From a virus: a DNA stretch of 27,540 bases. A program made the position numbers and the translations under genes. Position 1 is the stretch's first letter, and each line of letters begins with the position of its first letter. Positions 3,968 through 17,978 of this stretch are shown here, in pieces. The stretch is from positions 1 through 27,540 of IMG/VR virus record IMGVR_UViG_3300023049_000004. One strand, written 5' to 3'. The notes under the pieces were generated by a model. It had not been told where the DNA came from, searched no databases, and saw only the letters and a list, made by a program, of their open reading frames with translations.

Positions 3968-6152
3968 AGTCATTTTTCTCAAGTGTTTCAAGCATCTCGC
4001 TGAGGAATTTTTCCTCACTCTCGACCTCTTTTTCACTGACCTCAGTTTGTGATTTCCCGTAGTCAATTTCGCCCGCAACGATAGTGCATCGGCAACGTGG
4101 GTGCAGCGGTGCCCACGGCATATCGAGGAATGCTGATGCTGACGGTGACCCGCCTGCAATGTGCTCACCCTCTTTGTAGAATGTTGCCTCAACACTCACC
4201 TCTTTTGCGTGTAGTGGTGCACACATCGGACACACTCGCTCATCTTGAGCTGTGTACCATTTCTTTGTCTTGACCACACCTGACTGCACGAATGCGTCAT
4301 TTGTTGCCTGATTGCTGATGTCGAACGTCGTTGTCTTTGCCATAAGCTCAGCACGAACCTTGTCGGTGTAGTCGTACACCTCATTGATTCGCTTTTCGAT
4401 TTCTTTGACGTTTTCACCTGCATCAATACCCTCTTTGATTGTGTCTTTGAGAGCTGCGATTGTGGTTTCGGTGTAGCTACCTGATGCAGCACCGACGTAC
4501 TTGCTGAATCGTTCTTGAGTGGCAGCAGCATTCACATCAAATTTCACCATTGGATTGACAGCCATGATTGCAGCATCACCCTCACGTTGCAGCAAGTCAG
4601 TGAGAGCAGGTGACATGAGTTCGATTGTGAGAGCCATTTCGTCGGCTTTACTGAGTACATTGAGAGCTTTCTTTGTTTCGATACCTTTGCCCTCTTTGAT
4701 GTTCTCTCGTGCCCATTTTCGAGCCCTGCGAGCTTGCTGAGCATTGAAGTCAATCAAGTCTTGAGTGAGTTGCTCGTGCACCGCCTCAGTTCGATTCACT
4801 TTCTTTGTCCACGACTTGTGATGCTCTTTGTCCTCATCATCAGTGAATGATTTTTGACTGATGACAGCCACATCTTTGACGAGAGCTGCAATTTCATCAG
4901 CGGTGTCATTTTTTGTTGCCACTGAGTGACGCTTGATTCGCTTTTTCTTGTTGATTGCCTTTGAGGGTGTCCCGAATGGTGCGAACGTCTGAGGTTGAGG
5001 AATGATGTCACCACCGTCAACAGGTGAGAGACCGTCACGCTCACGAGCCTCGTTGAGTGTCATGTATGCCTGATTTGCGACACCAGCCTTGATTGATTCA
5101 AGCTCATGAGTCTTGTCAGCAGGTACGATTGAATCAAAGTCGAGATACAAGAGCCCTGTGGTGTCGAGGTCTTTGATGACAGTGTTGTTCAACCACTCAA
5201 CGAATCGTCTCATTTTCGGCTCAAGTGTGAAAAATGCGAATGAGTAGTTTTTTGCCTCAGCATCGGCTCGAGACATTCCTGACTCAGTGATTCCGAGAAT
5301 TGATTTCGGTACACCGAATGCAGCAAGAATCTTGTCACGATACCGATTGTCGAGCTCACTGAATTGCATGTCACGCATCGACTGACCGCCCTTGTTGAGC
5401 TTTGTACCATTCGGCAAGATTGCAGCGTTGTGAGCATTGCTCATGCCTCGGTGTTTCATTTCCCACCCTTTGCGAATGAGCTCGATTTCCTCTCGGGTTG
5501 TTGCTTGAGTCTCAAGCACGTCACCCACCTCACCGCCATTCTCGAAAAAGTTTCGATTGAATTCAGTTGCGAATTTTTCAACATCAATCCAGTCAGCAAT
5601 CTTTGCAGCAGTTCCGACACCGACAAAAGGGTTGTCGAGATTCGGGTATCGGTAGTGATAAATTTCCTCAGCAGGTACGTTGATTTTGCCCCCTGTGTTT
5701 GTTTTGATTTCGTACCCTGAAACAGAAAGACCGTCATCAGCGATTTTCACTGTGACGTTTTGAGGCGGTACGGGAATGAGTTGCTTGTCGACCTTTCGCC
5801 AGTAAGCGTTGCCGACTAGCTCTGAGTGACCGTGTGTGTGATACATGAGCTCACGACCGTCGAGAAAAGAGTTCGGCTCACTGAGCAGGTCGAGAATCGG
5901 GTGTGAGAATAGCTGCTCATCAGCTTTGTCATCAGCAGTTTGTCGCATGAGCTTGAGCTCAATGCCTGACAACGATGATGAGATTGTGTCGACACAAACA
6001 AAGACCCAGTTTTTGTTTGCCTGCATGAGTGTGGCAACATTTGAATCAGCTCGACCGAGACTGAAAGGTGTCCACGTTTGATTATTGAAAATATCGCCCG
6101 CTGATTTGACTGTGGTTGAGACAGCTGATTTGATTTTTGTGAAAATTGACAT
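3957..6152 (-). CDS. Portal protein fused to a MuF-like head morphogenesis domain
   Basis: The protein has 731 aa. Residues about 1-395 match a phage portal protein of the HK97 type: an early VFVCVDTIS helix, an FGVPKSILGI segment near residue 290, and the acidic ending YLDFDS. The portal forms the ring at the capsid vertex through which DNA is packaged. After a charged linker, residues about 450-700 carry a MuF-type (SPP1 gp7) domain ending in the paired Cys/His pattern CPMCAPLH and PLHPRCRC. MuF proteins associate with the portal and can be injected. The two are usually separate genes or, in some phages, fused as here. The gene follows the large terminase and has its own -10 box at 6173-6181. 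The acidic tail after residue 700 is probably disordered. Confidence 0.92.
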   Translation of the reverse strand: MSIFTKIKSAVSTTVKSAGDIFNNQTWTPFSLGRADSNVATLMQANKNWVFVCVDTISSSLSGIELKLMRQTADDKADEQLFSHPILDLLSEPNSFLDGRELMYHTHGHSELVGNAYWRKVDKQLIPVPPQNVTVKIADDGLSVSGYEIKTNTGGKINVPAEEIYHYRYPNLDNPFVGVGTAAKIADWIDVEKFATEFNRNFFENGGEVGDVLETQATTREEIELIRKGWEMKHRGMSNAHNAAILPNGTKLNKGGQSMRDMQFSELDNRYRDKILAAFGVPKSILGITESGMSRADAEAKNYSFAFFTLEPKMRRFVEWLNNTVIKDLDTTGLLYLDFDSIVPADKTHELESIKAGVANQAYMTLNEARERDGLSPVDGGDIIPQPQTFAPFGTPSKAINKKKRIKRHSVATKNDTADEIAALVKDVAVISQKSFTDDEDKEHHKSWTKKVNRTEAVHEQLTQDLIDFNAQQARRARKWARENIKEGKGIETKKALNVLSKADEMALTIELMSPALTDLLQREGDAAIMAVNPMVKFDVNAAATQERFSKYVGAASGSYTETTIAALKDTIKEGIDAGENVKEIEKRINEVYDYTDKVRAELMAKTTTFDISNQATNDAFVQSGVVKTKKWYTAQDERVCPMCAPLHAKEVSVEATFYKEGEHIAGGSPSASAFLDMPWAPLHPRCRCTIVAGEIDYGKSQTEVSEKEVESEEKFLSEMLETLEKNDYEN

Positions 6153-6172
6153 ATTGTTTTTTTGCTAAAATT

Positions 6173-6181
6173 ATTATAACA
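6173..6181 (-). promoter_or_regulatory. Extended -10 box before the portal gene
   Basis: The minus strand reads TGTTATAAT, with 20 nt to the portal ATG at 6152. It lies in the 32-bp gap behind the large terminase stop. This would give a short A/T-rich leader of about 13 nt without a Shine-Dalgarno sequence. No obvious -35 box. Confidence 0.45.
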
Positions 6182-6184
6182 GAC

Positions 6185-7558
6185 TCATATCCACATCGGT
6201 GCAAGGATTCCCCCCTCAGTGGGTTTTTGAAACGTCAGTGCGAGAGCATCACCGACGTTCGGTGATTTCACACCACGTTTCGCCATATCGTCCTTGCTCT
6301 CGAGTTGTACCTGACCTTTCGAGGTCAATTTGTATTTCGGTGCTGCGAGTTCATACCAGTCAGTGTGTTGCTCAAGTATCGCATCTTTGAGCCATTCACG
6401 CATCGCTTGCCACCCCTCAGCTCTCAGATTCAAGAATTGTTCTTTGTCTTGAGCATTCACTGCGACGTTCACCCCCTCGACACGGTCACTCACAGCAGGT
6501 TGCTCTCTCAGTCGGTCAAACGTACCTGCACCGAGACCGATGATGTCGATTCTCAATCGTGCATTCGGGTACTCTTTGAGGTACTTGATTGATTTACCTG
6601 CGAGCACCATTGTGTCAGTTTTCTCAATCGTCTCGAGCACCTTTGCTTTGTTGCCTTTGCGATAAATGAAAGCAGCAACATCGTGACCCTTTCGACTCGG
6701 GTCAAGACCGATGAATTCGTCCTCGCCATATTCCTCACGCTCAGCCTCAATCGCATTCTCAACGAGGTCGAATGAGATGAGTGTGTCAGTGTCCTTTTTC
6801 GGGAATTCACCGAGCACACGCACACGGTACACGTCTGAGTCCTCACCGTATTTTGTTTTCACGTCCTCAATCCAGTTAGTCGTCACAAGACCATGAATCA
6901 CTGTCTCACCTGCAATCACGTTCGGTGTGTCGAATGCACTGATGTGAATCTTGTTGTATAGCGGTGATGAGAATGAATCAAAAAAGTCACCTGACGGCTT
7001 TGTCGGGTTGCCGATTTCAACGAGCCGAGAGCCCTCACTGATGAGACCCCCCTCAATAGCCTCTTTGACATGACGACCGACACCCGACGACTCATCAATC
7101 ACAAAAAGAATGTTCGGTGAGTGCCACCCCTGCATTGATTCCATTCCTGAGTCACCGTCTTTTGTTGCCACCCCGATTGCATACCAGTCATCAGCAAATT
7201 CGAGCTCAGTCTGTTTGACATAGCCACCGAGATTGACCTTTGCGTGAGCATGAGAGCGTTTGATGTTTTTCCACAGTTGGTTTTTTACCTGCTTGAAAGT
7301 GGGTGCAGTTGTCACCACAATGCACGGTGCATACGCATAGAGATACCACAGCACAGCATCGCCCATGACTTTTGTTTTGCCCGCTGAGTTACAAGAGCGA
7401 ACCGTTGTGCGTTTGTGGTCACGAATACTCTCAACAATCTCGAGCTGCTTTTCCCACAACGAAACACCGAGAGTCTTTTCAAAAAAGAGATTCGGGTCTC
7501 GTCTGATGTTTTCTTGATACTCAGTGCCGAGTGATTTTTTATCTTGTGTGCTTTGCAT
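6185..7558 (-). CDS. terL: Terminase large subunit
   Basis: The protein has 457 aa from the ATG at 7558, overlapping the small subunit by 20 nt. It is the packaging motor ATPase and nuclease acting at the portal. The ATPase domain shows a Walker A-like motif (RSCNSAGKT, 54-62) and Walker B with catalytic Glu (ILFVIDE, 150-156). The C-terminal RNase H-like nuclease shows FIGLDPSRKG with Asp286, a second acidic strand RIDIIG (Asp338) and NVGDALAL with Asp437. Length and motif order are typical of intact terminases. An upstream ATG in frame lies inside the small subunit gene and is not preferred. Confidence 0.95.
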   Translation of the reverse strand: MQSTQDKKSLGTEYQENIRRDPNLFFEKTLGVSLWEKQLEIVESIRDHKRTTVRSCNSAGKTKVMGDAVLWYLYAYAPCIVVTTAPTFKQVKNQLWKNIKRSHAHAKVNLGGYVKQTELEFADDWYAIGVATKDGDSGMESMQGWHSPNILFVIDESSGVGRHVKEAIEGGLISEGSRLVEIGNPTKPSGDFFDSFSSPLYNKIHISAFDTPNVIAGETVIHGLVTTNWIEDVKTKYGEDSDVYRVRVLGEFPKKDTDTLISFDLVENAIEAEREEYGEDEFIGLDPSRKGHDVAAFIYRKGNKAKVLETIEKTDTMVLAGKSIKYLKEYPNARLRIDIIGLGAGTFDRLREQPAVSDRVEGVNVAVNAQDKEQFLNLRAEGWQAMREWLKDAILEQHTDWYELAAPKYKLTSKGQVQLESKDDMAKRGVKSPNVGDALALTFQKPTEGGILAPMWI

Positions 7559-8132
7559 TTTTTTCAATTTCTTTTCGCATCTTGATTCCTGTCGACTGAG
7601 CAATCATGTCAGCGAGTGAATCTTGAGCCCCATGATTCACGTTGATGTCCTCTGACCACGATTCGACCACTTGCAGCCATAGCTTTTGAGCGAACACACC
7701 GCCACGGGTTGCCCCCTTGAATATCGAGTGCATCACAGCAGGTGTGAGTGACCGCCATGTGTCAGATTGCATGTCGAATTTCATCATCTTGATGTGACGG
7801 TCGATTGATGAGGTTGAGAGTCCTGTTTCCTCAGCAAGTTCAACAGCAGTCGGCTTTCGCTTTTTCTTTTTGAGTAGTTTGATGAAAGCATCTTGAATGA
7901 GCACCTGATTGAATTCCCAGTCTCGACGTTTTGAATCAGCTGCACTTTTGTCAAAAGACGGCTTTGCCTCACTTTGCCTCACATCAACACTCTTGCCCTT
8001 GCTTGCACTCTTTGTTGATTTCGCCCCTTTTTTCGCTTGAATAGGTTTTGATGCAGCACGTTGAGCCCCACCTGATTTTGATTCGGGTGTCTTTTTCCGT
8101 GTCGCTTTCTTTTTTCCTTTGTTGGTTGCCAT
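7539..8132 (-). CDS. Terminase small subunit-like DNA-binding protein
   Basis: The protein has 197 aa. A Lys/Ser-rich, probably disordered N-terminus (1-65) is followed by a helix-turn-helix around residues 93-116 (PTAVELAEETGLSTSSIDRH) and a helical C-terminal region. Position immediately before, and overlapping, the large terminase, together with a DNA-binding HTH, fits the small terminase subunit that recognises the packaging site. No strong family signature is seen, so a late-gene regulator is an alternative. It is the first gene of the late block, behind a terminator (8174-8205) and a TGATATACT box (8144-8152). Confidence 0.7.
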   Translation of the reverse strand: MATNKGKKKATRKKTPESKSGGAQRAASKPIQAKKGAKSTKSASKGKSVDVRQSEAKPSFDKSAADSKRRDWEFNQVLIQDAFIKLLKKKKRKPTAVELAEETGLSTSSIDRHIKMMKFDMQSDTWRSLTPAVMHSIFKGATRGGVFAQKLWLQVVESWSEDINVNHGAQDSLADMIAQSTGIKMRKEIEKNAKHTR

Positions 8133-8143
8133 ATAGTGCCTTT

Positions 8144-8152
8144 AGTATATCA
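8144..8152 (-). promoter_or_regulatory. Extended -10 promoter of the late operon
   Basis: The minus strand reads TGATATACT, 11 nt upstream of the ATG at 8132, predicting a leader of only a few bases. It lies just behind the intrinsic terminator at 8174-8205, so it is well placed to start the terminase-head-tail transcript independently of early transcription. Confidence 0.5.
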
Positions 8153-8173
8153 GACCACAACAATGCGAACAGT

Positions 8174-8205
8174 AAAAAAGCCCCACGTTTTCACATGAGG
8201 CTTTT
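8174..8205 (-). terminator. Strong intrinsic terminator with GAAA tetraloop
   Basis: On the minus strand AAAAGCCTCATGT pairs over 13 consecutive positions (two or three G-T pairs) with ACGTGGGGCTTTT around a GAAA loop, and is followed by a run of six T. It separates the early block and the short ORF at 8235-8303 from the terminase operon. Confidence 0.85.
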
Positions 8206-8234
8206 GCTCGTCTATTCCGAGCCGTCAAGATTGG

Positions 8235-8303
8235 TCACCCCCTTTCAGTTGTCAGTGGGTAGTGATACTCACCGAAAAATTCAAAGAAAAGTTCAAGCTG
8301 CAT
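8235..8303 (-). CDS. 22-codon leader ORF with a true Shine-Dalgarno
   Basis: This short frame starts at the ATG 8303 and ends at TGA 8235-8237. It encodes a hydrophobic/aromatic peptide beginning MQLELFFEFF. It is preceded by GGAAAGGAGA (8311-8320) at normal Shine-Dalgarno spacing, the only convincing one I found in the genome. It is followed 29 nt later by the intrinsic terminator. A TGATATACT promoter (8327-8335) would start the RNA about 15 nt upstream. The arrangement promoter, SD, short ORF, terminator is that of a transcription-attenuation leader or of a small terminated RNA with a peptide. No peptide family is recognised. Confidence 0.5.
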   Translation of the reverse strand: MQLELFFEFFGEYHYPLTTERG

Positions 8304-8326
8304 TTTGCGTTCTCCTTTCCTCTCAC

Positions 8327-8335
8327 AGTATATCA
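8327..8335 (-). promoter_or_regulatory. Extended -10 promoter before the leader ORF
   Basis: The minus strand reads TGATATACT. Its TGA is at the same time the stop codon of the 47-aa gene at 8333-8476. It would give an RNA starting near 8320 that contains the SD and 22-codon ORF and ends at the terminator 8174, about 145 nt long. Confidence 0.5.
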
Positions 8336-8476
8336 CCCCTCGCAGCTGACGCAGGTGCTCTCACTGTTGTTGTGAATGCGAGGCTTTGTTTGAGTCGGCT
8401 CAACCTTGTCAAAAAATGAGTCGAGTGATTCGGTTTCAGTATCGTTCTCGGTCTTTGTTTCAATTTCAGTTTTCAT
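8333..8476 (-). CDS. Small acidic protein with C-terminal CxxC, unknown
   Basis: This 47-aa frame is too short for most gene callers. Residues 1-20 are Thr/Glu-rich and acidic, followed by a short FFDKVEP stretch and a C-terminal CVSC pair. The ATG at 8476 lies exactly 6 nt behind a TGATATACT box (8483-8491), predicting a leaderless mRNA. The stop codon forms part of the next promoter. Function is unknown; a small regulator or host-takeover protein is possible. Confidence 0.5.
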   Translation of the reverse strand: MKTEIETKTENDTETESLDSFFDKVEPTQTKPRIHNNSESTCVSCEG

Positions 8477-8482
8477 GAGTCC

Positions 8483-8491
8483 AGTATATCA
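8483..8491 (-). promoter_or_regulatory. Extended -10 promoter of the 47-aa gene (leaderless)
   Basis: The minus strand reads TGATATACT, then GGACTC and the ATG at 8476. The TGA of the box is also the stop codon of the upstream gene (8489-8491). A 6-nt gap from -10 to ATG places transcription start at the start codon. Confidence 0.5.
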
Positions 8492-8740
8492 CTTTCGTCT
8501 TGAGCGTTGTGCGGGGTTTGTGCGAGCGAGTTCCTCAAGCGTTGTGCGGTCATTCATGTAGTCATTGACCCCTGTCATACGTCGCCTTGCATACTCAGTC
8601 ACAGGCTCGTTTGATTCTTTGAGTGGTTTCGGTTGTGGTTTTGGTCTCGGGGTGTGTGAGGGTACATCATCGCAGTCATTGCAAGTTTTCCATGAGGGCA
8701 CAATGAGAGTTCGACCGCATTTTCGGCATGTTGATTTCAT
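8489..8740 (-). CDS. Small zinc-ribbon protein
   Basis: The protein has 83 aa from the ATG at 8740, ten bases behind the preceding stop and preceded by the G-free ACAACACT. Two CxxC pairs (CRKCG and CNDCD, residues 5-22) form a probable zinc ribbon. A Pro/Lys linker and a basic, Arg-rich C-terminus that may bind nucleic acid follow. The family is not recognised. The longer in-frame extension upstream overlaps the previous gene and is rejected. Confidence 0.7.
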   Translation of the reverse strand: MKSTCRKCGRTLIVPSWKTCNDCDDVPSHTPRPKPQPKPLKESNEPVTEYARRRMTGVNDYMNDRTTLEELARTNPAQRSRRK

Positions 8741-8750
8741 AGTGTTGTGA

Positions 8751-9140
8751 TTAGACTTTGAGCAAGATGCGGTATGCGTCACGGCATTGCTCGACAGTAA
8801 AGTCACCGAAGTGACATTGTGCTCGAGTGATGTTCATCTCACGAGAGAGCCAACAGTATGCCGACTCTTTGAGATGCTTGTCGCATTTCCACACACCCAT
8901 GAGGCATTTGTTGATGAATAGTTTCTTTGTCAATTTGCGAGCTTTTCTCATATGAGCGTTTGCCATTTGCCCGAGTGGTTTTCGAGTGTTGTTGTGGCAA
9001 CCGACGTATGCGTCACACTTTCGGCATAGCCATATCATGTGAGCTTTTTCATTGTATATTCTACCATATATCGCCTCATGAGAGACCCATTCAGCAGGTG
9101 AGTTGCAGAAAGGGCAGTCGATGTGAATGTTCTTGCTCAT
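8751..9140 (-). CDS. DUF3268-like zinc-finger protein
   Basis: The protein has 129 aa. The N-terminal CPFC (9-12) pairs with CRKC (39-42), followed by DAYVGCHNNTRKPLG, which is the hallmark pattern of the phage and plasmid DUF3268 zinc-finger domain as I remember it. The C-terminal half carries the expected WLSREMNI and CHFGDF segments. Its role is unknown; such genes sit among phage replication and recombination genes, as here. Its ATG overlaps the preceding TGA (ATGA), so translation is coupled. Confidence 0.75.
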   Translation of the reverse strand: MSKNIHIDCPFCNSPAEWVSHEAIYGRIYNEKAHMIWLCRKCDAYVGCHNNTRKPLGQMANAHMRKARKLTKKLFINKCLMGVWKCDKHLKESAYCWLSREMNITRAQCHFGDFTVEQCRDAYRILLKV

Positions 9141-9700
9141 GATAGTCGCTTTAGGATTTCAGCATCTTGCATACCCTCAGCCATTTGACCGATTTGAATT
9201 TGCCGTCGCATTTCCTCTCGTTGCTCAGCCGCTGATTTTTCTTTCTCTTTGCCGATGCGTAGGTCTGACTCGTCGGTCTCACCTTTGAAAAACAGGTCAT
9301 GTTTTTGCACGAATGCGTTGATTGCGATTTGTTGAATTTTCTTGAGTTCTTTTTTGTATAGTGGCACAAGCACGTCGATTGCATGAGTCACCTCGAGATG
9401 CTCTGAGTCAGTGAGGTCAGTGATGAGAATCTTGAATCGCTTGTTGATGAGCACTTTGTCATTGCCACCGTATCGCAGCATGATTTGATGCAAGATGTCC
9501 TGATTGATGCTTTTGTACGAATACTCACGTTGAGTGCGTTTCGTTTTCTGATTCATCACCTCATCAATGTCGATGTTGTGTTTTTTGCAAAGATTCTCGA
9601 GCACTCTTTGTGCAGCATCAGATTCGTGACCGAGATTCGCCTCAATTTTGTTGATGAGAGCTTTGATGATTCTCTCGTGCCGTTCATCATTTTTTGCCAT
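9137..9700 (-). CDS. DUF2786-like protein, unknown role
   Basis: The protein has 187 aa. The first 50 residues have the pattern of the DUF2786 domain: ERHERIIKALINKI, then ESDAAQRVLENLCKKHNID. This domain is found in phage and bacterial proteins of unknown function. The middle is mixed alpha/beta, and the end (150-187) is a charged, probably coiled helix. The start overlaps the preceding stop by 14 nt and the stop overlaps the next ATG, so the gene belongs to a coupled set of four. No catalytic residues can be assigned. Confidence 0.65.
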   Translation of the reverse strand: MAKNDERHERIIKALINKIEANLGHESDAAQRVLENLCKKHNIDIDEVMNQKTKRTQREYSYKSINQDILHQIMLRYGGNDKVLINKRFKILITDLTDSEHLEVTHAIDVLVPLYKKELKKIQQIAINAFVQKHDLFFKGETDESDLRIGKEKEKSAAEQREEMRRQIQIGQMAEGMQDAEILKRLS

Positions 9701-10130
9701 AGCTCATTTTTTCAGTTAGTGCAGCAAGCCCCTCGATTGGTTTGCCTGCGGGTGCTGATAATTGAGGAATGTCGACACCTTTGCCGAGCATTTGCTGCTG
9801 ATTGTTTTCAACGAGGTATGTCACTCGCTTTTGAATGAGACCTTGCACGCCTTGATAGTGCTTGAGTACCCCCTCACGCTCAGCGTGATTGCGGTCATCG
9901 GGGTCAGACCCGAACACATAGTCATCATTGAACCCGAGGTGCTTGCCATAGTGAGGCAGTATGTCGAGAATTTGAGAGCCTTTGAGTGGTCGACCGTTGA
10001 TGATTGTTTTCCCGTCGAATAAAAAGACAAAATACGCTTTCTCAACCTCGAGCTCATCAGCGATGATGTACTCGTGCGGTTTGTAGCCGATTTTGACCTT
10101 GAAAAAATGTTTGTTTGGTGTGTTGTTCAT
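9687..10130 (-). CDS. Conserved-looking phage protein, unknown
   Basis: The protein has 147 aa. The first 100 residues look like a compact alpha/beta domain with strands around residues 8-20 and 32-45 and the motif GRPLKGSQILDILPHYGKH. This recalls hypothetical proteins next to phage replication genes, but I cannot name a family. The C-terminus is Gln/Pro-rich. It follows the replisome-organiser gene by 11 bp and its ATG is preceded by CCAACACC without a Shine-Dalgarno sequence. A role in replication is inferred from position only. Confidence 0.6.
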   Translation of the reverse strand: MNNTPNKHFFKVKIGYKPHEYIIADELEVEKAYFVFLFDGKTIINGRPLKGSQILDILPHYGKHLGFNDDYVFGSDPDDRNHAEREGVLKHYQGVQGLIQKRVTYLVENNQQQMLGKGVDIPQLSAPAGKPIEGLAALTEKMSYGKK

Positions 10131-10141
10131 GGTGTTGGTTT

Positions 10142-10927
10142 TTAGAGAATCACGTTTGACGTTTTGTCAGCGTGTTCATTTTTTTTGCGAATAAATGCGT
10201 TGCTCAGTGCGTCCCATTTGTCAGCGAGTTGAGTCGGGGTTGTGATTTGTGGGAAGTACGGCAGCAAGTTTGATTTCGGCAGTAGTGTGATGACTTTCAT
10301 CACTTGCTCAAAGGTGTGAGTCTTGATGAGGTGCTCAACCGACGAGCGTTGAGTCTTGTTTGCATACCACCGAGTGTTTGATGAGTTGACGACAACGAAT
10401 GCGTCAATCACGTCTACAATTTGCTGATTCTTTTTTTTTGATTCATTAGTCTCGACCGCATCGTCAGATGCAGGGTTTTTCTCCTCTCCTCTACTCTCCT
10501 CTACTCTACTCTGAGCGTCCGAGCTGGAGACATTTTGGAGACATTTTGGAGACATTTGTTTTGAGCCTTTGATTGCAACGGTTTTTTCGGTGTATGCTTT
10601 GTTTTCCTTTACATCAAGAGTCTTTTTTTCATCGGTGTACACAGTTGCTTGATAGCGGTCTGTTTTGATTCTGTTGTTGTTGATATGCCAGTGTTTGATG
10701 ACACAGACACCTGACTCAAAAGGCATGATGAATCGTTTTGCGATGAGCAATTTGAGGTCATCGTCTGCTGCATTTATCATTTTTGCGATTCTTTTCGGTG
10801 ATGCCACGAACCCGTCATCGTCTGCTCTCATACCGAGATGAAAGTACAAACATTGTGTCGAGTTCGGCATGTCGATGAAAGCATCGCTGTCAATGATTTT
10901 CATGCTGAACATTCTTTTTTGTGCCAT
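10142..10927 (-). CDS. Replisome organiser / replication initiation protein (DnaD-like)
   Basis: The protein has 261 aa. Residues 1-100 match the N-terminal winged-helix domain of phage replisome organisers: MFSMKIIDSDAF, then LYFHLGMRADDDGFV and later GVCVIKHWHINNNRIKTDRY. This domain binds the origin. A Ser/Glu/Lys-rich linker (115-165) leads to a helical C-terminal domain (170-240). That domain is expected to recruit a host helicase or loader, as no phage helicase or polymerase is encoded. The ATG is preceded by AACACACC and an unusual 120-nt structured leader with its own promoter at 11051-11059, which may include the origin or an autoregulatory site. Confidence 0.8.
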   Translation of the reverse strand: MAQKRMFSMKIIDSDAFIDMPNSTQCLYFHLGMRADDDGFVASPKRIAKMINAADDDLKLLIAKRFIMPFESGVCVIKHWHINNNRIKTDRYQATVYTDEKKTLDVKENKAYTEKTVAIKGSKQMSPKCLQNVSSSDAQSRVEESRGEEKNPASDDAVETNESKKKNQQIVDVIDAFVVVNSSNTRWYANKTQRSSVEHLIKTHTFEQVMKVITLLPKSNLLPYFPQITTPTQLADKWDALSNAFIRKKNEHADKTSNVIL

Positions 10928-10981
10928 TGATTTTTTGGTGTGTTAGTAGGCTGATAATGTGCAGGCTCGAGTATCGTCTCA

Positions 10982-11050
10982 TTGAGTGAGTCATCACCCC
11001 TTGCAAGTGTGATGAGTCACTCGACGAGTGCAAGGGTCGAGCGTCCCTTG
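10982..11050 (-). promoter_or_regulatory. Structured leader with overlapping inverted repeats and possible pseudoknot
   Basis: Three main inverted repeats overlap. IR-A: GAGTGAGTCATCAC (10984-10997) with GTGATGAGTCACTC (11009-11022), 13 of 14 pairs. IR-B: CCCTTGCA (10998-11005), inside the loop of A, with TGCAAGGG (11029-11036) outside A, which makes an H-type pseudoknot possible. IR-C: CAAGGG (11031-11036) with CCCTTG (11045-11050) next to the -10 box. B and C use the same arm and exclude each other. The element fills the region between promoter and replisome-organiser gene. It could be a riboregulator, repressor operator or replication origin. Confidence 0.6.
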
Positions 11051-11059
11051 ATTATATCA
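11051..11059 (-). promoter_or_regulatory. Extended -10 promoter of the replication operon
   Basis: The minus strand reads TGATATAAT, preceded by AAATCATT two bases upstream, the same element as at other promoters. A perfect dyad GATTTT-CAC-AAAATC (11065-11079) covers the -35 area and another dyad (CAAGGG/CCCTTG, 11031-11050) covers the start site, so repression or activation at both sides is plausible. Confidence 0.55.
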
Positions 11060-11077
11060 TGAATGATTTTGTGAAAA

Positions 11078-11482
11078 TCACTCGGGCTCAATCAGCTGTG
11101 CATTTCCTGTGAATATCTCAACGATGCAATGTGCGTCCTCATCTTTTTCGCATTTTCGACAGCCCTGCATTGTGTATTTCACATACTGATTTGAGTCGTC
11201 GGGCATGAGTCCTGCGTGCACGAACCCGTCCTCAATCATCTTGACCATTGCTGAGAGATTCGATGAGTCGAGCAGATTGCCTTTGAGAGCGAATGTGTAT
11301 TTGATAATGACAGGGAATTCGGCAACCTCGAATGTGATGTCATCGACAGCCTCTCGAGCAGCCCAGTAGTACGACTCGTGCAACGGTGAACGTGATTTAT
11401 AGTGCATTCGATAGTACGCATTTGTGCTCACCTTTTCATGAATGATGACCTTGATGTGGTCGTCGTTTATTTCCTCAATCAT
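11078..11482 (-). CDS. rusA: RusA-type Holliday junction resolvase
   Basis: The protein has 134 aa. The C-terminal two thirds match RusA: KGNLLDSSNLSAMVKMIEDG followed by LMPDDSNQYV. The acidic residues expected for metal binding are visible at Asp72, Asp85 and Asp95/96. RusA dimers resolve branched DNA from recombination or replication and can trim DNA before packaging. A small Cys pair (CRKC, 108-111) near the end is an added feature. It is coupled to the gene upstream through an ATGA overlap and ends the first early operon. Confidence 0.8.
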   Translation of the reverse strand: MIEEINDDHIKVIIHEKVSTNAYYRMHYKSRSPLHESYYWAAREAVDDITFEVAEFPVIIKYTFALKGNLLDSSNLSAMVKMIEDGFVHAGLMPDDSNQYVKYTMQGCRKCEKDEDAHCIVEIFTGNAQLIEPE

Positions 11483-12093
11483 AAGCCGAGCTCTTTGCGA
11501 GTTTTATTGTACAGCGTCTCAAGACTCGGGAATGGTACATGAATGCCTGCAAGAGCAACGTGTCGATTGAAAATGTCGAATACCTCGTTGATTTCCTGAG
11601 TGGTGAGGTCATTCGTTGATTCTTTTCCTGTGTGCTCAAGTTGAGCTGCACGCCATATCTCTTTGACATGCTTTGAGTTGACAGGTACATCAATCGTCGG
11701 GAATTCCTCAAGCAGTTTCATGAGACCGTACCCTGCAGCGTCGTATTCTTTTGCGACGAATGTGAAAAGCAAGTGCATTGATTTTCGCTGTTGGTCTGAG
11801 GTTGTTGATTTTTGATTTTCAGTCTCGTCGAGTGGTGTACCGATGTGACGACCGCACTCACTGCACTCGTGTCGATGTTCCCAGTCGTTGTTTGAGTTGA
11901 TTTTTGCTTTGCAGCAGTCTGAGAGTTGTATTGTCATAGTTGGTTTTTGTTTGCATGAATAGCATTCTTTTGCGGGCACTTTCGGCAGCTCGCAGATGCT
12001 GTGCTGATATTTTGTCGTTTTCTTTTTCTCGTCAGTGAGTATCTCAATCGAAAAACATCGTTTGCATTGAGAGAGAATTTCACCCTGCATCAT
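11479..12093 (-). CDS. Zinc-finger protein with a phage-specific helical domain, unknown
   Basis: The protein has 204 aa. The N-terminal 85 residues carry several CxxC pairs (CKRC, CYSC, CCKA, CSEC), suggesting two zinc-binding sites. The C-terminal 100 residues have the pattern HLLFTFVAKEYDAAGYGL, then EIWRAAQLEHTGKEST, and the ending HVPFPS. From memory this recalls a widespread uncharacterised family next to phage recombination genes; I cannot check that here. Its start codon overlaps the preceding TGA and its stop overlaps the resolvase start, so it may act with RusA in recombination. Confidence 0.7.
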   Translation of the reverse strand: MMQGEILSQCKRCFSIEILTDEKKKTTKYQHSICELPKVPAKECYSCKQKPTMTIQLSDCCKAKINSNNDWEHRHECSECGRHIGTPLDETENQKSTTSDQQRKSMHLLFTFVAKEYDAAGYGLMKLLEEFPTIDVPVNSKHVKEIWRAAQLEHTGKESTNDLTTQEINEVFDIFNRHVALAGIHVPFPSLETLYNKTRKELGL

Positions 12094-12554
12094 CGGTTGA
12101 ATTCAGATGCCCTCACGACCCGACCTGACTCGATTGTGTACCCGAGACCTTGCCAGTATGGTGCATCTTTGCCGAGTAATTTTTTGAGAGTAGTCTTGCC
12201 CTCAGATTCAATGTGACCGAGCGTTTTCTTTGTTGCTTTTTCGACAGCAACGACTTTCCATATCTCAGCACCGTTGAGGAATTCAACCCCCTTGCGAGTG
12301 AGCACCCAGTTGCCGTGTTCTTTGTGCTTTGCGACGAGACCGTGGTCACCGAGCACTGTCATGTTGACCCGTTGAGGCAGTGTGAACAGACCTTGCTTGA
12401 ATAGTTCTTTGTCGGGGTGCACTACATTCACGCCTTTTTTCTCGATAAATTCTGAGATGATGACAAGCATCGTGGCATATCCTTTTGACAGCACAGCGGG
12501 TTTGTAGAGTCTTTGCGAGCAGCACTCGCAGCGTTCGTCGATTTTGTTTGACAT
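12090..12554 (-). CDS. Zinc-ribbon / winged-helix-like protein
   Basis: The protein has 154 aa. The N-terminal CECC cluster (9-12) is followed by a winged-helix-like region near residues 30-95 with the wing segment WVLTRKGVEFL. The C-terminal part (105-150) is a small mixed domain. This suggests DNA binding, possibly transcription control of the early genes, but no family is recognised. The ATG follows CAACACACACC and a very strong hairpin at 12576-12618. The stop overlaps the next gene as ATGA. Confidence 0.65.
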   Translation of the reverse strand: MSNKIDERCECCSQRLYKPAVLSKGYATMLVIISEFIEKKGVNVVHPDKELFKQGLFTLPQRVNMTVLGDHGLVAKHKEHGNWVLTRKGVEFLNGAEIWKVVAVEKATKKTLGHIESEGKTTLKKLLGKDAPYWQGLGYTIESGRVVRASEFNR

Positions 12555-12575
12555 GGTGTGTGTTGGTTATGCTCA

Positions 12576-12618
12576 AGGGCTGTGAGAGAGTCGCTGAGAG
12601 TGACCCTTTCACAGCCCT
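12576..12618 (-). other. Long near-perfect hairpin between two early genes
   Basis: AGGGCTGTGAGAG (12576-12588) pairs with CTTTCACAGCCCT (12606-12618) and, after one mismatch, GTCGCT (12590-12595) pairs with AGTGAC (12599-12604) around a 3-base loop. This makes 19 base pairs in 43 nt. There is no T run behind it on either strand, so a simple terminator is unlikely. RNA processing, mRNA stabilisation, attenuation or a DNA-level cruciform are possible. Confidence 0.75.
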
Positions 12619-12635
12619 CGAGCTGTGATTGATAA

Positions 12636-12917
12636 CTACTTGAGCCCGAGCTCAGCTTTGATTGCTTTCACGTCAGCGATGAGGTTGACGAGAATTTCAG
12701 ACCGCAACCCGTCAGTCAATATGCCGATGTAGTTTGCGATGATGAGAATGTTCTCAGCGTCGAGCTTGTTGTACGTCTGAGGTGAGTTCGGGAATGCGAA
12801 CCGCACCTCACCTTTTGCCCCCTTTTTTGGTTTTTTAGTTTTGGGGTCGATTGGTGCGTCAAGTTTGATTTCTTTGAGGTCTTTGATTGTGAATTCCTTT
12901 TTTGTTTTGGTTGCCAT
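12636..12917 (-). CDS. Small lysine-rich protein, unknown
   Basis: The protein has 93 aa. The first 45 residues are strongly basic (KKEFTIKDLKEIKL, PKTKKPKKGAKGE) and the second half is helical and hydrophobic-patterned. No family is recognised; DNA or RNA binding is suggested by charge only. The ATG is preceded by CAATCAACACA, part of the recurrent non-SD start context. It lies between the small membrane peptide and the hairpin at 12576-12618. Confidence 0.6.
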   Translation of the reverse strand: MATKTKKEFTIKDLKEIKLDAPIDPKTKKPKKGAKGEVRFAFPNSPQTYNKLDAENILIIANYIGILTDGLRSEILVNLIADVKAIKAELGLK

Positions 12918-12929
12918 TGTGTTGATTGA

Positions 12930-13025
12930 TTAGTCTTTGAATAAAAGGTGCAAGATGACCCACCCTGCGACCCATTTCCACGATGCCCCCGTGACGAGAG
13001 CGATGAGAGCGATGAGAGCAAACAT
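12930..13025 (-). CDS. 31-aa hydrophobic membrane peptide
   Basis: The frame starts at the ATG 13025, one base behind the preceding stop, and encodes one almost entirely hydrophobic helix ending in KD. A longer frame from 13136 exists but would run inside the upstream gene. The tight spacing and the membrane composition support a real small gene. Such peptides may act as toxins, lysis modulators or membrane anchors; no family is recognised. Confidence 0.5.
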   Translation of the reverse strand: MFALIALIALVTGASWKWVAGWVILHLLFKD

Positions 13026-13026
13026 A

Positions 13027-13245
13027 CTACTGTTTTGAGTGATACTCGTCGGCACACTTTTGACAAAATTTCGACCCGTTTCGCTTTTCACCCTCACAGC
13101 CTGAGAGTTTGATTTCGATGATTTGGTATGACTCACCGTCGTCAGACATTTTCACCTCTGAGCTTTGATACGCTGCATTTACACAGCACTTTTTGCTGAT
13201 TTGCTGAGCAATTCGCATCTTGATGTCGATTTCAGAAAGTTTCAT
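13027..13245 (-). CDS. Small protein with four-Cys zinc site
   Basis: The protein has 72 aa. A helical N-terminus (1-16) is followed by a CC pair (20-21), then CEGEKRNGSKFCQKC, which looks like a zinc knuckle near the C-terminus. The ATG follows the SSB-like stop by two bases. No family is recognised. It is one of at least five small Cys-rich proteins in this early block and may bind DNA, RNA or a host protein. Confidence 0.6.
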   Translation of the reverse strand: MKLSEIDIKMRIAQQISKKCCVNAAYQSSEVKMSDDGESYQIIEIKLSGCEGEKRNGSKFCQKCADEYHSKQ

Positions 13246-13247
13246 GA

Positions 13248-13550
13248 TTAGAATGGTATGTCCTCGGGGTTGATTTCCTCTTGAGGGTACTCGGGCATGA
13301 CACTCGCTGAGTTGTTTTGTGCAGCAGGTGCAGAATTGTTTTGCTGACCGCCCCCGTTGTTATTTGTTTTTTGTTCAGCCTCGAATACTGAGAATGTGAC
13401 GTTGTTGTCATTCATCTCGATGATTCGACTGACTGAGCCGTCCTCTTTGTGGAATTCGGTCATTGTGCCGACGTTCGCCCAGAATGTTTTTTCCTCATTG
13501 TTTGAGGTGTACTTTTTTGGGTTGACGATGTTGAATCTTTTGACTTGCAT
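13248..13550 (-). CDS. Single-stranded DNA-binding protein-like
   Basis: The protein has 100 aa. It ends in the acidic tip EINPEDIPF, the signature of SSB C-termini that dock replication and recombination partners. Before this comes an Asn/Gln/Gly-rich flexible linker (60-90) and a short N-terminal beta domain with FWANVGTMTEF. It is shorter than bacterial SSB (about 170 aa), so the OB fold is compact or divergent. It sits between the exonuclease/annealing genes and the replisome organiser, which fits a role in recombination and replication. The start is preceded by ACACATC and no Shine-Dalgarno sequence. Confidence 0.75.
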   Translation of the reverse strand: MQVKRFNIVNPKKYTSNNEEKTFWANVGTMTEFHKEDGSVSRIIEMNDNNVTFSVFEAEQKTNNNGGGQQNNSAPAAQNNSASVMPEYPQEEINPEDIPF

Positions 13551-13565
13551 GATGTGTTTTGTTGG

Positions 13566-13778
13566 TTATGCGATTGCTCGCTTGAAGTGATAAATAATTG
13601 AGGCAGTTGTTCCACCCCATGAGACCCCTGTGTTCCCGCTGATTGGCACGACTGCGACGAGTTCCCACCCGTGTGCACCGTGACTGTTCAGCATCGCCTC
13701 AGTTGCCTCTTTGTCAATTGAGCGACCTGTGAGACCCTTTTTCATTTTCGGGGTCTCAGTCATGTATTCGTATTGCAT
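13566..13778 (-). CDS. DUF4177-like small protein
   Basis: The protein has 70 aa from the ATG at 13778, two bases behind the preceding stop; an upstream in-frame ATG (13808) would overlap the previous gene. The pattern MQYEYMTE, then NSHGAHGWELVAVVP and the final IIYHFKR, is that of the DUF4177 family. That is a small beta-rich domain of unknown function common in bacteria and phages. Confidence 0.75.
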   Translation of the reverse strand: MQYEYMTETPKMKKGLTGRSIDKEATEAMLNSHGAHGWELVAVVPISGNTGVSWGGTTASIIYHFKRAIA

Positions 13779-13780
13779 GA

Positions 13781-14116
13781 CTATTTTTTTGAACCGTGAA
13801 TCGGGCACTCGTCATTTTCACAATCATGATTCGCACGGTCAAGAATTGAGCCGAGCATGTCATCAAGTGATGATGAGCGTTCAGCGAATGTGCTGACGAA
13901 TTTTGCTTTGTTGTATTCGACACAGACGAGCAGGTTGCCGATTTCACCGACGTTTACACTTTTTACTGTGTACCCCTTGTGGTCACCGACGAGCACTGAT
14001 GCTTGCATTGCGAGTGAATGGTCACCGTGCTCATTTTGATATTCTTTGATGAGGTCATGCACGTCTGACAATGCTTTGAGGATTGTTGCGAGTTCTTTTT
14101 TTTGTTCTTTTTTCAT
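13781..14116 (-). CDS. Hypothetical protein with C-terminal Cys/His motif
   Basis: The protein has 111 aa. It has a basic helical start (MKKEQKKELATILKALSDV), a mixed middle with a strand pair LLVCVEYNKAKFV, and a C-terminal CENDECPIHG that could bind zinc. No family is recognised. The ATG is directly preceded by AAACACACC, a clear example of the non-SD start context of this phage. Confidence 0.65.
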   Translation of the reverse strand: MKKEQKKELATILKALSDVHDLIKEYQNEHGDHSLAMQASVLVGDHKGYTVKSVNVGEIGNLLVCVEYNKAKFVSTFAERSSSLDDMLGSILDRANHDCENDECPIHGSKK

Positions 14117-14143
14117 GGTGTGTTTTTTGAATTAGTCTGATTA

Positions 14144-14983
14144 TTATTTCAACGTCTTTGCGATGACGGGGTCGATTCGATGCACGTCGAGCAGGGCTTT
14201 GAATACCTTGAATGATGTGACCAGTTCGCCACGACTCACCGTGTGTGTCATGTATGACCCCGCTTTGCGAATCACGTTTTGCTCTTTGTCGAGCACGTCA
14301 TCTTTTGTGAAGTTCACAATTTTGGCACCGTGCACCTTTTGACCTGTCATTTCCTCATACGCTTTCATGTATGCAGCGATTTGATACACCTGAGACGTGT
14401 ACACGCCCTTTGATGTTTTATAGTCAACGATGTACAGCTTGCCGTCGATTTCAGCGAGAGCGTCGCATTGACCGACAAAGTTGTGTCGCTTTGAGTAGAT
14501 TCTGAATTCACTCGAGATGAATTTCGGGTTGACCTCAGATTTCCACTCATTGAATGCTGCAACCCCTTGAGTCGCAAGCACCTTGTCAGTGTCAGACAGC
14601 TCATTGAATTGCTCGACCTCATTGATGTCAGTTCGATTGTGCTCAGCAAAGTCGTGAACCACTGACCCCACGTCAGCAGCCTCTTGCTTTCGTTCATTGT
14701 ACGCATTCTTTGCGATGTTGAGCATTGCCACAACGTCGTCACGAGTGAATTGTGCACCGTCTCGCATGTGCTCGAGCATTCGTTCCTCAAACATTCTCAC
14801 CGCCCATGACATGAGCTGAGGTGACTTGTCGAGTTTGCCGACCACCGCTGAGGGTGATGCAATCCACTGACCCACCTCGACCCCGTCGACACTGATGAGC
14901 TTGTATCGGTGTGATGTTGGGTAAAAGTCGATGACCACTGTGTCGTTGTAGAGCGTGAATCGCTCAGTGATTGTTTTTGCCAT
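14144..14983 (-). CDS. PD-(D/E)XK exonuclease (RecB/Cas4-like)
   Basis: The protein has 279 aa from the ATG at 14983, one base behind the previous stop. It shows the full nuclease motif set of the RecB-like PD-(D/E)XK group: His110 in GSVVHDFAEH, Glu159 in SSEFRIYS, Asp174 in GQCDAL, VDYKTSK with Asp187 and Lys189, and the QVYQIAAY motif at 198-205. It would resect DNA ends to give single strands for the annealing protein encoded upstream. With the Sak4-like ATPase, SSB-like protein and RusA it forms a complete phage recombination set. No Cys cluster for an iron-sulphur site is seen. Confidence 0.88.
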   Translation of the reverse strand: MAKTITERFTLYNDTVVIDFYPTSHRYKLISVDGVEVGQWIASPSAVVGKLDKSPQLMSWAVRMFEERMLEHMRDGAQFTRDDVVAMLNIAKNAYNERKQEAADVGSVVHDFAEHNRTDINEVEQFNELSDTDKVLATQGVAAFNEWKSEVNPKFISSEFRIYSKRHNFVGQCDALAEIDGKLYIVDYKTSKGVYTSQVYQIAAYMKAYEEMTGQKVHGAKIVNFTKDDVLDKEQNVIRKAGSYMTHTVSRGELVTSFKVFKALLDVHRIDPVIAKTLK

Positions 14984-14984
14984 A

Positions 14985-15941
14985 CTATTTGCTCGCCTGA
15001 GCATTAGAGATTGCAACAATCAGCTGAGTCTTTGTGCCTGATACGGGCAACCCGAGACTCTTTGCCATTTCTTTGAGGTCAATGAGGCTCAAGTCACCGA
15101 GTTCAACGTCCTGTGCTGCGTTCTGAGCGTCAATTTGTGCTGAGTCGACCTTTGTGTCGGTTTCAGCGGGTACGCTTGAATTTGGCACGGTTTCGTTCGT
15201 TTGTGCAGGGGTTTTGACCTCGTCAACGGGTGCTGCTGTGTCATGTCCGAGCTGAGCTGCAATATATCCGTATTCGGGCTTGATGTACTTGCCGAGTTTT
15301 CCTGTTCGGTCTTTTGATACTCGAGACTCGTCACTCGGGTCGAGAAAGAGCACACGCTTTGTTTCACTCTCACCTGATTCGTCATTCTTTTTTGTGACAA
15401 CCCCCATGTATGCCACGATGTCGACCATTGTGATGAGTTCGTCTGAGAGCTTTGTTGCAATCATCGGTCGTCGCACGATAGTGTCACCGTCAGTCTTTTC
15501 ATCAACGTGAGCAACGATGACAATGTTCTTGTTGGTATCTCGCAGCCATTTGATGAAGTTTCGCATTTTCTTTTTCACCTCGCCCCACCCTGCAATCGTG
15601 AGGTCACCTGTACCGCCTTGACGATACTTTGCCCCGTTGATGCTTTGTGATTCCATGAGCTTTTGCATTGCCTCACCGATTGGGTCGACGATGATTGTGT
15701 CATAGTTTGCAATCACTGTTTTGAGCTGATTGAAGTCCTCTTGTGTGAACCACTCTTTTTGTTGAGCAACGTCCACTGAGATGCCTCGTTCACCGAAGTA
15801 TTTTGCACCGTTCTCAAAGTCGATGAGCAGTGGTCTCGGGAATGATGCAGCGAATGTTGTCTTACCCACCCCGCCCATGCCGTAGACAATCATCATGATT
15901 GAGGCATTTTTCGGGTATTCTTTTGTGTTAGTAATTTGCAT
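14985..15941 (-). CDS. Sak4-like RecA-fold ATPase / annealing protein with C-terminal SAP-like domain
   Basis: The protein has 318 aa from the ATG at 15941, preceded by CAACACACCATT; a further upstream in-frame ATG is not preferred. The Walker A motif GMGGVGKTT (21-29) and Walker B DTIIVDP (81-87) match the phage P-loop family that includes Sak4 single-strand annealing proteins. The core ends near residue 215. A Pro/Thr/Ala linker (220-275) leads to a short helix-extended-helix segment (about 283-316, LSLIDLKEMAKSLGLPVSG) of SAP/HeH type that should bind DNA. It works next to the exonuclease downstream. A homologous DNA-binding tail occurs on the protein at 25700-26098. Confidence 0.82.
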   Translation of the reverse strand: MQITNTKEYPKNASIMMIVYGMGGVGKTTFAASFPRPLLIDFENGAKYFGERGISVDVAQQKEWFTQEDFNQLKTVIANYDTIIVDPIGEAMQKLMESQSINGAKYRQGGTGDLTIAGWGEVKKKMRNFIKWLRDTNKNIVIVAHVDEKTDGDTIVRRPMIATKLSDELITMVDIVAYMGVVTKKNDESGESETKRVLFLDPSDESRVSKDRTGKLGKYIKPEYGYIAAQLGHDTAAPVDEVKTPAQTNETVPNSSVPAETDTKVDSAQIDAQNAAQDVELGDLSLIDLKEMAKSLGLPVSGTKTQLIVAISNAQASK

Positions 15942-15960
15942 AATGGTGTGTTGATTATTT

Positions 15961-16245
15961 TTATTTTGAGCGTGATTCGGGTCGTCCGAAAGCAATCATG
16001 TGTGATGCTGTGAATGCGAACGAATCATTGCTCGATTTGTAATACTCATACTTGACTGAGCCGTCAGACTCAACGTGAGCACGAATTTGTTTTTTTGTTG
16101 GTGCTGAGTCGAATACCACTCTTGAGCTACCCTCGACTAAAAGGTCGAAAGGCTCTTTGCGATATACATGACCCATGTCTCGCACCGTGTAGCCTGATTG
16201 CCACAGCTTTTTTTTCACTACTTGTTTTTTTTCGTTTTTGGTCAT
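15961..16245 (-). CDS. Hypothetical basic protein
   Basis: The protein has 94 aa. A Lys-rich N-terminus (1-13) is followed by a beta-rich domain with GYTVRDMGHVYRKEPFDLLV and VVFDSAP. The pattern recalls the first strands of restriction-endonuclease-like folds, but no E-x-K catalytic pair is visible, so nuclease activity is not claimed. It is the first gene behind a canonical promoter (-35 TTGCTC, 17 bp, -10 TATAAT) whose -10 is 8 nt from the ATG, giving an mRNA with almost no leader. Confidence 0.65.
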   Translation of the reverse strand: MTKNEKKQVVKKKLWQSGYTVRDMGHVYRKEPFDLLVEGSSRVVFDSAPTKKQIRAHVESDGSVKYEYYKSSNDSFAFTASHMIAFGRPESRSK

Positions 16246-16253
16246 GCTAGTTC

Positions 16254-16282
16254 ATTATAAATGATTTATGATGAGAGAGCAA
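16254..16282 (-). promoter_or_regulatory. Promoter of the recombination operon
   Basis: The minus strand has TTGCTC (16277-16282), a 17-bp spacer and TATAAT (16254-16259), then 8 nt to the ATG at 16245. The spacer carries TCATCATAAATCATT, nearly identical to the spacer of the promoter at 17911-17939, so both are probably controlled together. Confidence 0.65.
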
Positions 16283-16315
16283 TGAATCGAGTGTGAATTG
16301 CGTCTTGCAATGGTG

Positions 16316-16705
16316 CTATTGAGTCGATGCTAGATGTCGCAAAATTGCGTCACCATACGCACATGAGTCGAACGGTACACCGTACCTGTTGACCCCGCTT
16401 GAGCATGTTACCGTCCCCCCATTCCACACATGAGCAATTTGTCGCTCACTGAACCCCCTGTCGAGTAATTGTTGAATTTTGAGGATTGCCACAGTTTCCT
16501 CATTCTTGCACGTCTGTTTCGGTATCTCTTTGAGCATTTGCTCAGCGTACAATTTCCACGTTGCAGGCATGAATTGATATGCCCCGTTTTCGCCCGAGAG
16601 ACCTTGAGCCGAGCAATCGCCTTGACTCTCATGTCTCTTGATAGCTGCTGCTATTCGTTGAGCGTCGGGGCTGACCCGAAAGACACGAGACCATGTCTCA
16701 CGTTC
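16316..16705 (-). CDS. SLT/lysozyme domain in a frame without a start codon
   Basis: This open frame of 129 codons has no ATG, GTG or TTG before its catalytic region. It encodes a lytic transglycosylase-type lysozyme: catalytic Glu26 in IKRHESQG, then the core GENGAYQFMPATW (38-50), HVWNGG (92-97) and GVNRYGVPFDS. Starting at the only ATG (MPATW) would delete the catalytic Glu. The frame overlaps the end of the upstream membrane/coiled-coil gene in the -1 frame (16651-16705). The expected product is therefore a fusion of membrane helix, coiled coil and lysozyme, made by -1 frameshifting or broken by a one-base error or mutation. From memory the domain resembles CPR lysozymes. Confidence 0.7.
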   Translation of the reverse strand, partial: ERETWSRVFRVSPDAQRIAAAIKRHESQGDCSAQGLSGENGAYQFMPATWKLYAEQMLKEIPKQTCKNEETVAILKIQQLLDRGFSERQIAHVWNGGTVTCSSGVNRYGVPFDSCAYGDAILRHLASTQ

Positions 16706-17130
16706 TCAAGTTGAGAATCGAGACCCGCTTTTTCAGCGTCTAGCTCAGCAGTTTTTTGTGCCTCTTTTTCATCGAGTTGAGCGATGAGTGCAGCACGTTC
16801 TTTACTGAGTTCGTCGAGTGTGTTTGTTCGACGTTCGGCAAGTTCGGCACGTTGCTCGTTGATGTAGATTTCCTCAGCGAGCAATGCTTGCTGTTGTTGG
16901 AATTCCTCACGAGTCTTGATTGCCTCAAGAGCCTCACGCTTTGATTTTTCGTCAGCTGACTCAGTGTCAATCACTTTCGACACAGTTGAGGTTGAGTGTT
17001 CTCTCACGAATGTTTCAGTGCTCGAGAGCATTCCTGTATTCGTGAGCAACAGATACCAACCTGCGACAATGATTGTAATGAGCAACACCGTTGTGATTGT
17101 GAGCTTTCGTTTTGTTGATTTTTTTTGCAT
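16651..17130 (-). CDS. Membrane-anchored coiled-coil protein (upstream part of lysozyme fusion)
   Basis: The protein has 159 aa. A basic N-terminus is followed by one membrane helix (about 10-30), a Ser/Thr-rich stretch, and a long Glu/Ala/Lys coiled coil (about 55-145) with ALLAEEIYINEQRAELAERR. The last 20 residues after LENV are not helical and end at a TAG while the lysozyme domain continues in the -1 frame. Topology predicts a C-terminus outside the membrane, where a peptidoglycan-cleaving domain would work. No slippery heptamer of the X-XXY-YYZ type is obvious in the overlap, so a natural mutation or a sequencing error is an open alternative. Confidence 0.7.
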   Translation of the reverse strand: MQKKSTKRKLTITTVLLITIIVAGWYLLLTNTGMLSSTETFVREHSTSTVSKVIDTESADEKSKREALEAIKTREEFQQQQALLAEEIYINEQRAELAERRTNTLDELSKERAALIAQLDEKEAQKTAELDAEKAGLDSQLENVRHGLVSFGSAPTLNE

Positions 17131-17138
17131 AAATTTTG

Positions 17139-17381
17139 TTATCGAATAATTGCACCGTATGAGTCACGAACCGTTGTGTCGATTTCAATACCCGCAGCGT
17201 CGCACCGTTGCTTTTCTGATTCGGTGAGATAAAAGTCCCGATATTCCTCTGACTGTGACTGCAATTTGATACAAGTCACCTCAGATTGTTTGTCGAGTGC
17301 TGCGATGAGAGCAAAAACAAACAAACAAACAAGTGAAAGACCGAGCACTATACCCACAAAGTTTTGAATGATTTTTGTCAT
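17139..17381 (-). CDS. Single-pass membrane protein, unknown
   Basis: The protein has 80 aa from the ATG at 17381, which overlaps the preceding TGA as ATGA; the upstream extension in frame is rejected. Residues 8-30 form a very hydrophobic membrane helix. The outer part has two Cys (about 37 and 60) and is polar. No family is recognised. It is next to the membrane-anchored coiled-coil/lysozyme gene and may work with it at the envelope. Confidence 0.65.
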   Translation of the reverse strand: MTKIIQNFVGIVLGLSLVCLFVFALIAALDKQSEVTCIKLQSQSEEYRDFYLTESEKQRCDAAGIEIDTTVRDSYGAIIR

Positions 17382-17846: not shown

Positions 17847-17910
17847 GATTTTGGTGTGTTGATTCGGTTGATAATTGGTGAGGTCGACCCCCTCTCTCTC
17901 ACCTCTTTAT

Positions 17911-17939: not shown

Positions 17940-17978
17940 CCCTTGTCATCACATTGTGTGGATAATTTTCGGACATAG

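Follow-up and report, generated by a model that had tools for sequence, protein, structure and literature searches.

A widespread and previously unnamed phage RNA element, which unites a complement of the 16S rRNA 3' tail, an AUCUUGRC motif and a hairpin with a GA(N)AGA loop, was identified directly ahead of the terminase genes in the window, and its status as a unit is well supported. The window, i.e. the whole stretch of DNA that was analysed, comprises the 27,540 bases of a virus record and bears a terminal repeat of 127 bases. As defined here, the element consists of an 11-15-nt complement of the whole 16S tail, followed after 1-5 nt by AUCUUGRC and then by a hairpin of 4-5 bp with the GA(N)AGA loop, and it is often followed by an intrinsic terminator. 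We give roughly even chances to the reading that a terminated RNA of about 150 nt carries this element, that its tail complement docks the 30S ribosomal subunit without acting as a start site, and that the hairpin provides a second contact.

Organization of the minus-strand unit

The initial annotation had described a promoter box, a Shine-Dalgarno sequence (SD), a 22-codon ORF and a 13-bp GAAA-capped terminator in this region, and all of these were found on the minus strand, where the box is an extended -10 box and the terminator a strong one. That reading was confirmed as correct yet incomplete, the 16S complement, the conserved hairpin and a separate TATACT box having been overlooked. A search with the large terminase yielded four relative contigs (L002, L003, L004 and L005), to which the following list of features refers.

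8335-8327, minus strand: TGATATACT, an extended -10 box that may serve the small RNA as promoter, recognized from sequence
8172..8320, minus strand: predicted RNA of about 150 nt, with ends placed from the -10 box distance and the terminator, and with a predicted fold
8320-8311, minus strand: SD of the 22-codon ORF, GGAAAGGAGA, 16S-tail pairing -13.4 kcal/mol
8303-8235, minus strand: 22-codon ORF, MQLELFFEFFGEYHYPLTTERG and stop codon, kept in L005
8246-8233, minus strand: 16S rRNA 3' tail complement GAAAGGGGGTGACC, spanning the whole single-stranded tail and overlapping the ORF stop codon
8224..8231, minus strand: conserved AUCUUGAC (family AUCUUGRC), from alignment A2 and pattern scans
8222-8206, minus strand: conserved hairpin GCUCG-GAAUAGA-CGAGC, covarying stem, model match E about 2e-8
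8174..8205, minus strand: intrinsic terminator, 13-bp stem (8205-8176), GAAA loop, six T after; stem kept in L005
8144..8169, minus strand: putative terminase-operon promoter TTCGCA-14-TATACT, at the same place in L003, L004 and L005
7539..8132, minus strand: putative gene for the small terminase (HTH), with the large terminase gene (6185-7603) immediately after it

The ATG of the ORF (8303-8301, minus strand) follows GGAAAGGAGA after a 7-nt spacer, and the last codons of the ORF are themselves GAAAGGGGGTGACC, which is followed by AUCUUGACG, then by the hairpin, which abuts the terminator stem, and then by the terminator. The latter (8205-8176) ranked first of 26 terminator-like sites when positions 5000-20000 were scanned, and the folding of the region beat 200 of 200 shuffles (z -2.65). 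The -10 box is of the same type as those before leaderless genes of this phage, and L005 has TGATACAAT at the position matching TGATATACT. The promoter-like box, the terminator and the deeply conserved core support the proposal that the site encodes a small RNA, terminated after about 150 nt.

The description of the genome as nearly free of SD sequences was borne out, as the best of 28 gene starts paired with the 16S tail at -9.7 kcal/mol and most were weaker than -4, compared with the value listed above for the SD of the 22-codon ORF. The pairing of GAAAGGGGGTGACC was calculated at -23.7 kcal/mol, the strongest genome-wide on either strand, with a 16S tail from which that of the phage's host may differ. 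TATAAT/TATACT boxes lie 6 nt before the ATG at positions 1332, 8488 and 19452 on the minus strand (TATAATAAATTTATG, TATACTGGACTCATG and TATAATCAAAATATG), which may indicate leaderless mRNAs and a host that perhaps uses SD sequences only slightly. Beside the element, at about 8477-8334 of the window and about 8276-8408 of contig L041, two different phages encode small proteins whose C-termini are of one kind (RIHNNSESTCVSCEG and RVHIGGSTCEGCEG).

Statistical tests of the unit

Covariation counts from alignment A2 were biased, as the model had picked paired sites, and pattern scans offered a cleaner test. The pattern ATCTTGRC-N5-GGAANAGAC, which requires neither pairing nor an SD, matched at least 78 distinct sites; among the 78 listed, 61 had a stem of at least 4 bp and 61 had an SD-like 16S complement just upstream. 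The stems found with this pattern were diverse (CTAG/CTAG, GCAG/CTGC, GTAG/CTAC, CTCG/CGAG, CCGG/CCGG and others). The reverse pattern, consisting of the complement and AUCUUGRC only, matched 64 distinct sites, with a hairpin of at least 3 bp next in 49. All site counts given here include related phages, and the events are not independent.

The complementarity was strong: 69 of 91 hairpin sites paired with the 16S tail at -14 kcal/mol or better, compared with 0.7% of shuffled sequences. The median pairing energy of these 69 sites was -22.0, versus -7.15 for 390 ATG starts from the same loci, and -20 was reached by 75% of the sites versus 0.26% of the starts. The complement was linked to termination, since a strict terminator occurred within about 70 nt at 42% of the 69 complement-bearing sites, at 4.5% of hairpins without the complement and in 0.2% of shuffles. 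It also abutted the stop codon of an ORF of at least 60 codons at 26 of the 69 sites (random positions, 3%). Short ORFs and SD-like strings are common, and an ordinary ORF with an SD and a terminator might have come together by chance, but recurrence in unrelated phages and the pattern-scan, shuffle and pairing counts rule this out, so that we regard it as next to impossible.

Conservation at the RNA level

Conservation acts on the RNA, as the stems retain pairing through double changes, and the strand of the RNA was agreed upon by G-U wobbles (UUGRC orientation), by neighbouring tRNAs on the same strand and by the terminators. The last GG of the complement lies mostly 11-12 nt from the UUG, beyond the usual SD spacing, and this long distance and the pairing with the whole tail argue against an ordinary start site. 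A real start site, at which the SD drives synthesis of a tiny peptide from the UUG (MTARNRR...), would account for a near-perfect SD that is followed by UUG and for TARNR being encoded at many sites; the shared peptide is nevertheless a consequence of the conserved RNA, the loops shift the frame (six-base loops in 10 of 69 sites, eight-base loops in 2 of 69), the peptide ends vary freely with a median of 13 codons to the stop, and some Clostridia copies have no UUG, which makes this explanation highly improbable. The greater openness of the UUG frame was considered as evidence for coding and rejected, this openness being built in by the UGA and UAG inside the motif.

Comparison with close relatives

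L002 is almost identical to the window. In L005 the two SD-like sites are retained, the hairpin is unchanged, and the changes in the terminator stem preserve pairing. The L005 peptide is MQLELFFEFFGEYHYTPTTIERG, from an ORF with a 3-nt insertion; this insertion is in frame, and therefore the 22-codon ORF may be translated. A search for the 22-codon peptide in phages gave no match, and a scan of viral contigs for the ORF found only the contig of L005 and the near-identical contig L021. The ORF is confined to one small phage group; it is the RNA core, and not the ORF, that other phages have conserved.

An HNH endonuclease gene replaces the ORF, SD, 16S complement and hairpin in L003 and L004, and the terminator and the promoter-like box are retained. 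This gene (4152-4420 in L003, 805-1066 in L004) lies between the same flanking genes in both, marking a swap site before the terminase operon. The TATACT box of the window lies between the terminator and the putative small-terminase gene, 11 nt before its ATG; the corresponding box in L003, L004 and L005 reads TTGACA/TTGACT-14-TATACT/TATAAT, and each of the four relatives has a promoter-like box after its terminator. The 14-nt spacer between the -35 and -10 elements (8169-8144 in the window, and L003-L005) is unusually short for sigma-70 promoters, and the pair is conserved.

Attenuation leader peptides of the trp or tna type combine an SD, a short ORF and a terminator, and the unit in the window is like them in all three respects. 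It differs from them in that the downstream genes have their own promoter-like box and that the terminator can be conserved where the ORF is missing. The initial annotation had proposed an attenuation leader governing read-through into the packaging genes, and had named relatives that hold the terminator without the ORF and SD as evidence against it; L003 and L004 are such relatives, and in the window, L003, L004 and L005 a separate TATACT/TATAAT box for the small-terminase gene stands right behind the terminator, which leaves the proposal unsupported. Translation-controlled attenuation, in which ribosomes on the 22-codon ORF reinitiate at the SD-UUG and traverse the terminator to allow terminase transcription, would fit the strong SD, the ORF kept in frame in L005, the overlap of the second SD with the stop codon and a UUG frame that is open through the terminator. 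It is at odds with the promoter-like box after the terminator in every relative, with the loss of ORF, SD and hairpin in L003 and L004, with the other core-carrying phages that have no such ORF and with the long SD-UUG spacing, and we consider it unlikely. The predicted fold of both the window and L005 was dominated by the terminator stem, and no clear competing stem was noticed. Because L003 and L004 keep the terminator and the promoter box without the leader, the leader seems to be dispensable for the terminase operon. Attenuation via the 22-codon ORF could at most be an extra layer peculiar to the window and L005.

Distribution and genomic neighbourhood

The full unit was found in phages of Streptococcus, Proteus, Citrobacter and Salmonella and in many uncultured phages, and the hairpin without the 16S complement in Acinetobacter phages, crAss-like phages and tRNA arrays. 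Distant blastn matched positions 8245-8207 to gaps that bear no annotation in Salmonella jumbo phages (E=3e-4 to 3e-5; E=3e-5 for the 42-nt core against SPFM1) and to a crAss-like phage. The 22-base pattern TTGRCGGCTCGGAAYAGACGAG occurred in 19 viral contigs and 3 bacterial genomes, and additional copies with different stems were present in L036 (at least four) and in the crAss-like phage L034 (four). A model built from 24 sequences gave further matches in 15 of 295 Enterobacteriaceae genomes and in Clostridia, and the weakest of these matches are perhaps due to chance.

Several other observations were made on these contigs. Blocks of about 60 bases are in reversed order between two deposited jumbo-phage records, L033 (LR535901.1, about 1360-1780) and L035 (MT679221.1), and the SPFM1 record appears scrambled. 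A sub-threshold type-P1 twister ribozyme match (L034 772-827, E 0.002) starts the crAss-like noncoding stretch that holds the four hairpin copies. A conserved GAAGUG...stem...UGCGA and no terminator follow the hairpin in Gram-negative members (L038-L040, L042, L053 and L121-L161), which probably form a second subtype.

In most of the annotated phages examined, the element lies among head, packaging or lysis genes. It is located between the portal/minor-head and scaffold/major-capsid genes in Streptococcus phages, between the Rz and terminase genes in Proteus phage vB_BPM-V3, and between the large terminase and portal genes in L041; Acinetobacter phage Brutus has the hairpin with no complement, in a gap of 529 bases that follows its head genes. 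Association with head genes is a tendency with exceptions, because some sites fall within tRNA arrays or early regions, and that of Aeromonas phage AsC4_1 is close to a repair exonuclease.

The frequent position among head or packaging genes, and the occurrence of hairpins that have no complement next to tRNAs and in long noncoding stretches, where one stretch can hold several copies, would suit a hairpin that mainly binds protein, such as a head or packaging protein of the phage or an RNA-binding protein of general function from the host, with the SD-like part helping some phages only. The near-fixed distance between hairpin and complement in 69 of 91 sites suggests one unit instead, and the sites in early-gene or tRNA regions also speak against such a protein site, to which we assign about one chance in four. 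Docking of the 30S subunit cannot be the only role of the hairpin, because the hairpin also occurs without the 16S complement (tRNAs, crAss-like phages, Acinetobacter noncoding stretches).

Comparison with known RNAs

The nearest known behaviour to the proposed docking is that of STAB-SD of the cry3A mRNA of Bacillus thuringiensis, a non-initiating SD-like sequence that can pair with the 16S 3' end, and at which 30S binding was proposed to block RNase J1 and protect the mRNA (PMC4113751). The element is likewise SD-like and able to pair with the 16S 3' end (at the energy given above for the window). It differs from STAB-SD, a short 5'-end stabiliser, in that its complement covers the whole tail and in that it is tied to AUCUUGRC and the conserved hairpin, often before a terminator. 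A UUG follows the complement, usually at the 11-12 nt already noted.

The put RNA of HK022, of about 70 nt, forms two stem-loops and binds the RNA polymerase beta-prime zinc domain (PMC9378689). Both put and the element are phage RNAs near terminators, and put is cis-acting; the HK022 genome gave no match at E of 1 or better with model R1, and similarity to put sites in sequence or structure was not borne out. GOLLD and ROOL RNAs are phage noncoding RNAs often found near tRNAs, and ribosomes were reported in GOLLD pull-downs (PMC12286853); the element shares the frequent proximity to tRNAs and is much smaller. Rfam GOLLD matches (L230 2171-2562 and L048 1904-2318) are separate from the element, about 0.5 and 1 kb away.

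No Rfam 15 family covered the element at gathering or relaxed thresholds. T4 rnaC and rnaD did not match it, nothing convincing was found in HK022, lambda, P22, P1 and Mu (best E 0.055), and E. coli genomes searched with two Enterobacteria-type elements gave no near match. Mimicry of RNase E rne5 (RF00040) was considered and rejected: L105 gave a match in the rne leader, but the UUG falls in a paired stem there, and the rne5 consensus does not include the hairpin. A literature search by sequence did not find the element, which papers beyond the searched set could describe.

Proposed mechanism and implications

We infer that the 30S subunit binds the element and that this binding has consequences. 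Pairing of the complement with the 16S tail would dock a 30S subunit at a place that does not work as an ordinary start site. The hairpin, which comes directly after, would be a second conserved contact, fixing or blocking the docked subunit. Docking would then protect or regulate the end of the message by the terminator, or hold the 30S subunit, at the borders of late (head, packaging) units. We hold a more far-reaching version more tentatively: that the element defines a new class of phage RNA, found in phages of several bacterial phyla, which clamps the full 16S tail, places its hairpin near the decoding site and captures or parks 30S subunits late in infection at the borders of head genes.

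These proposals are testable now in cultured phages. If true, an RNA that annotations have missed makes contact with the small ribosomal subunit at its most conserved part in many phages, including well-studied ones of Streptococcus and Proteus, and this RNA may explain the terminators and the long unannotated gaps among head genes in late phage operons.
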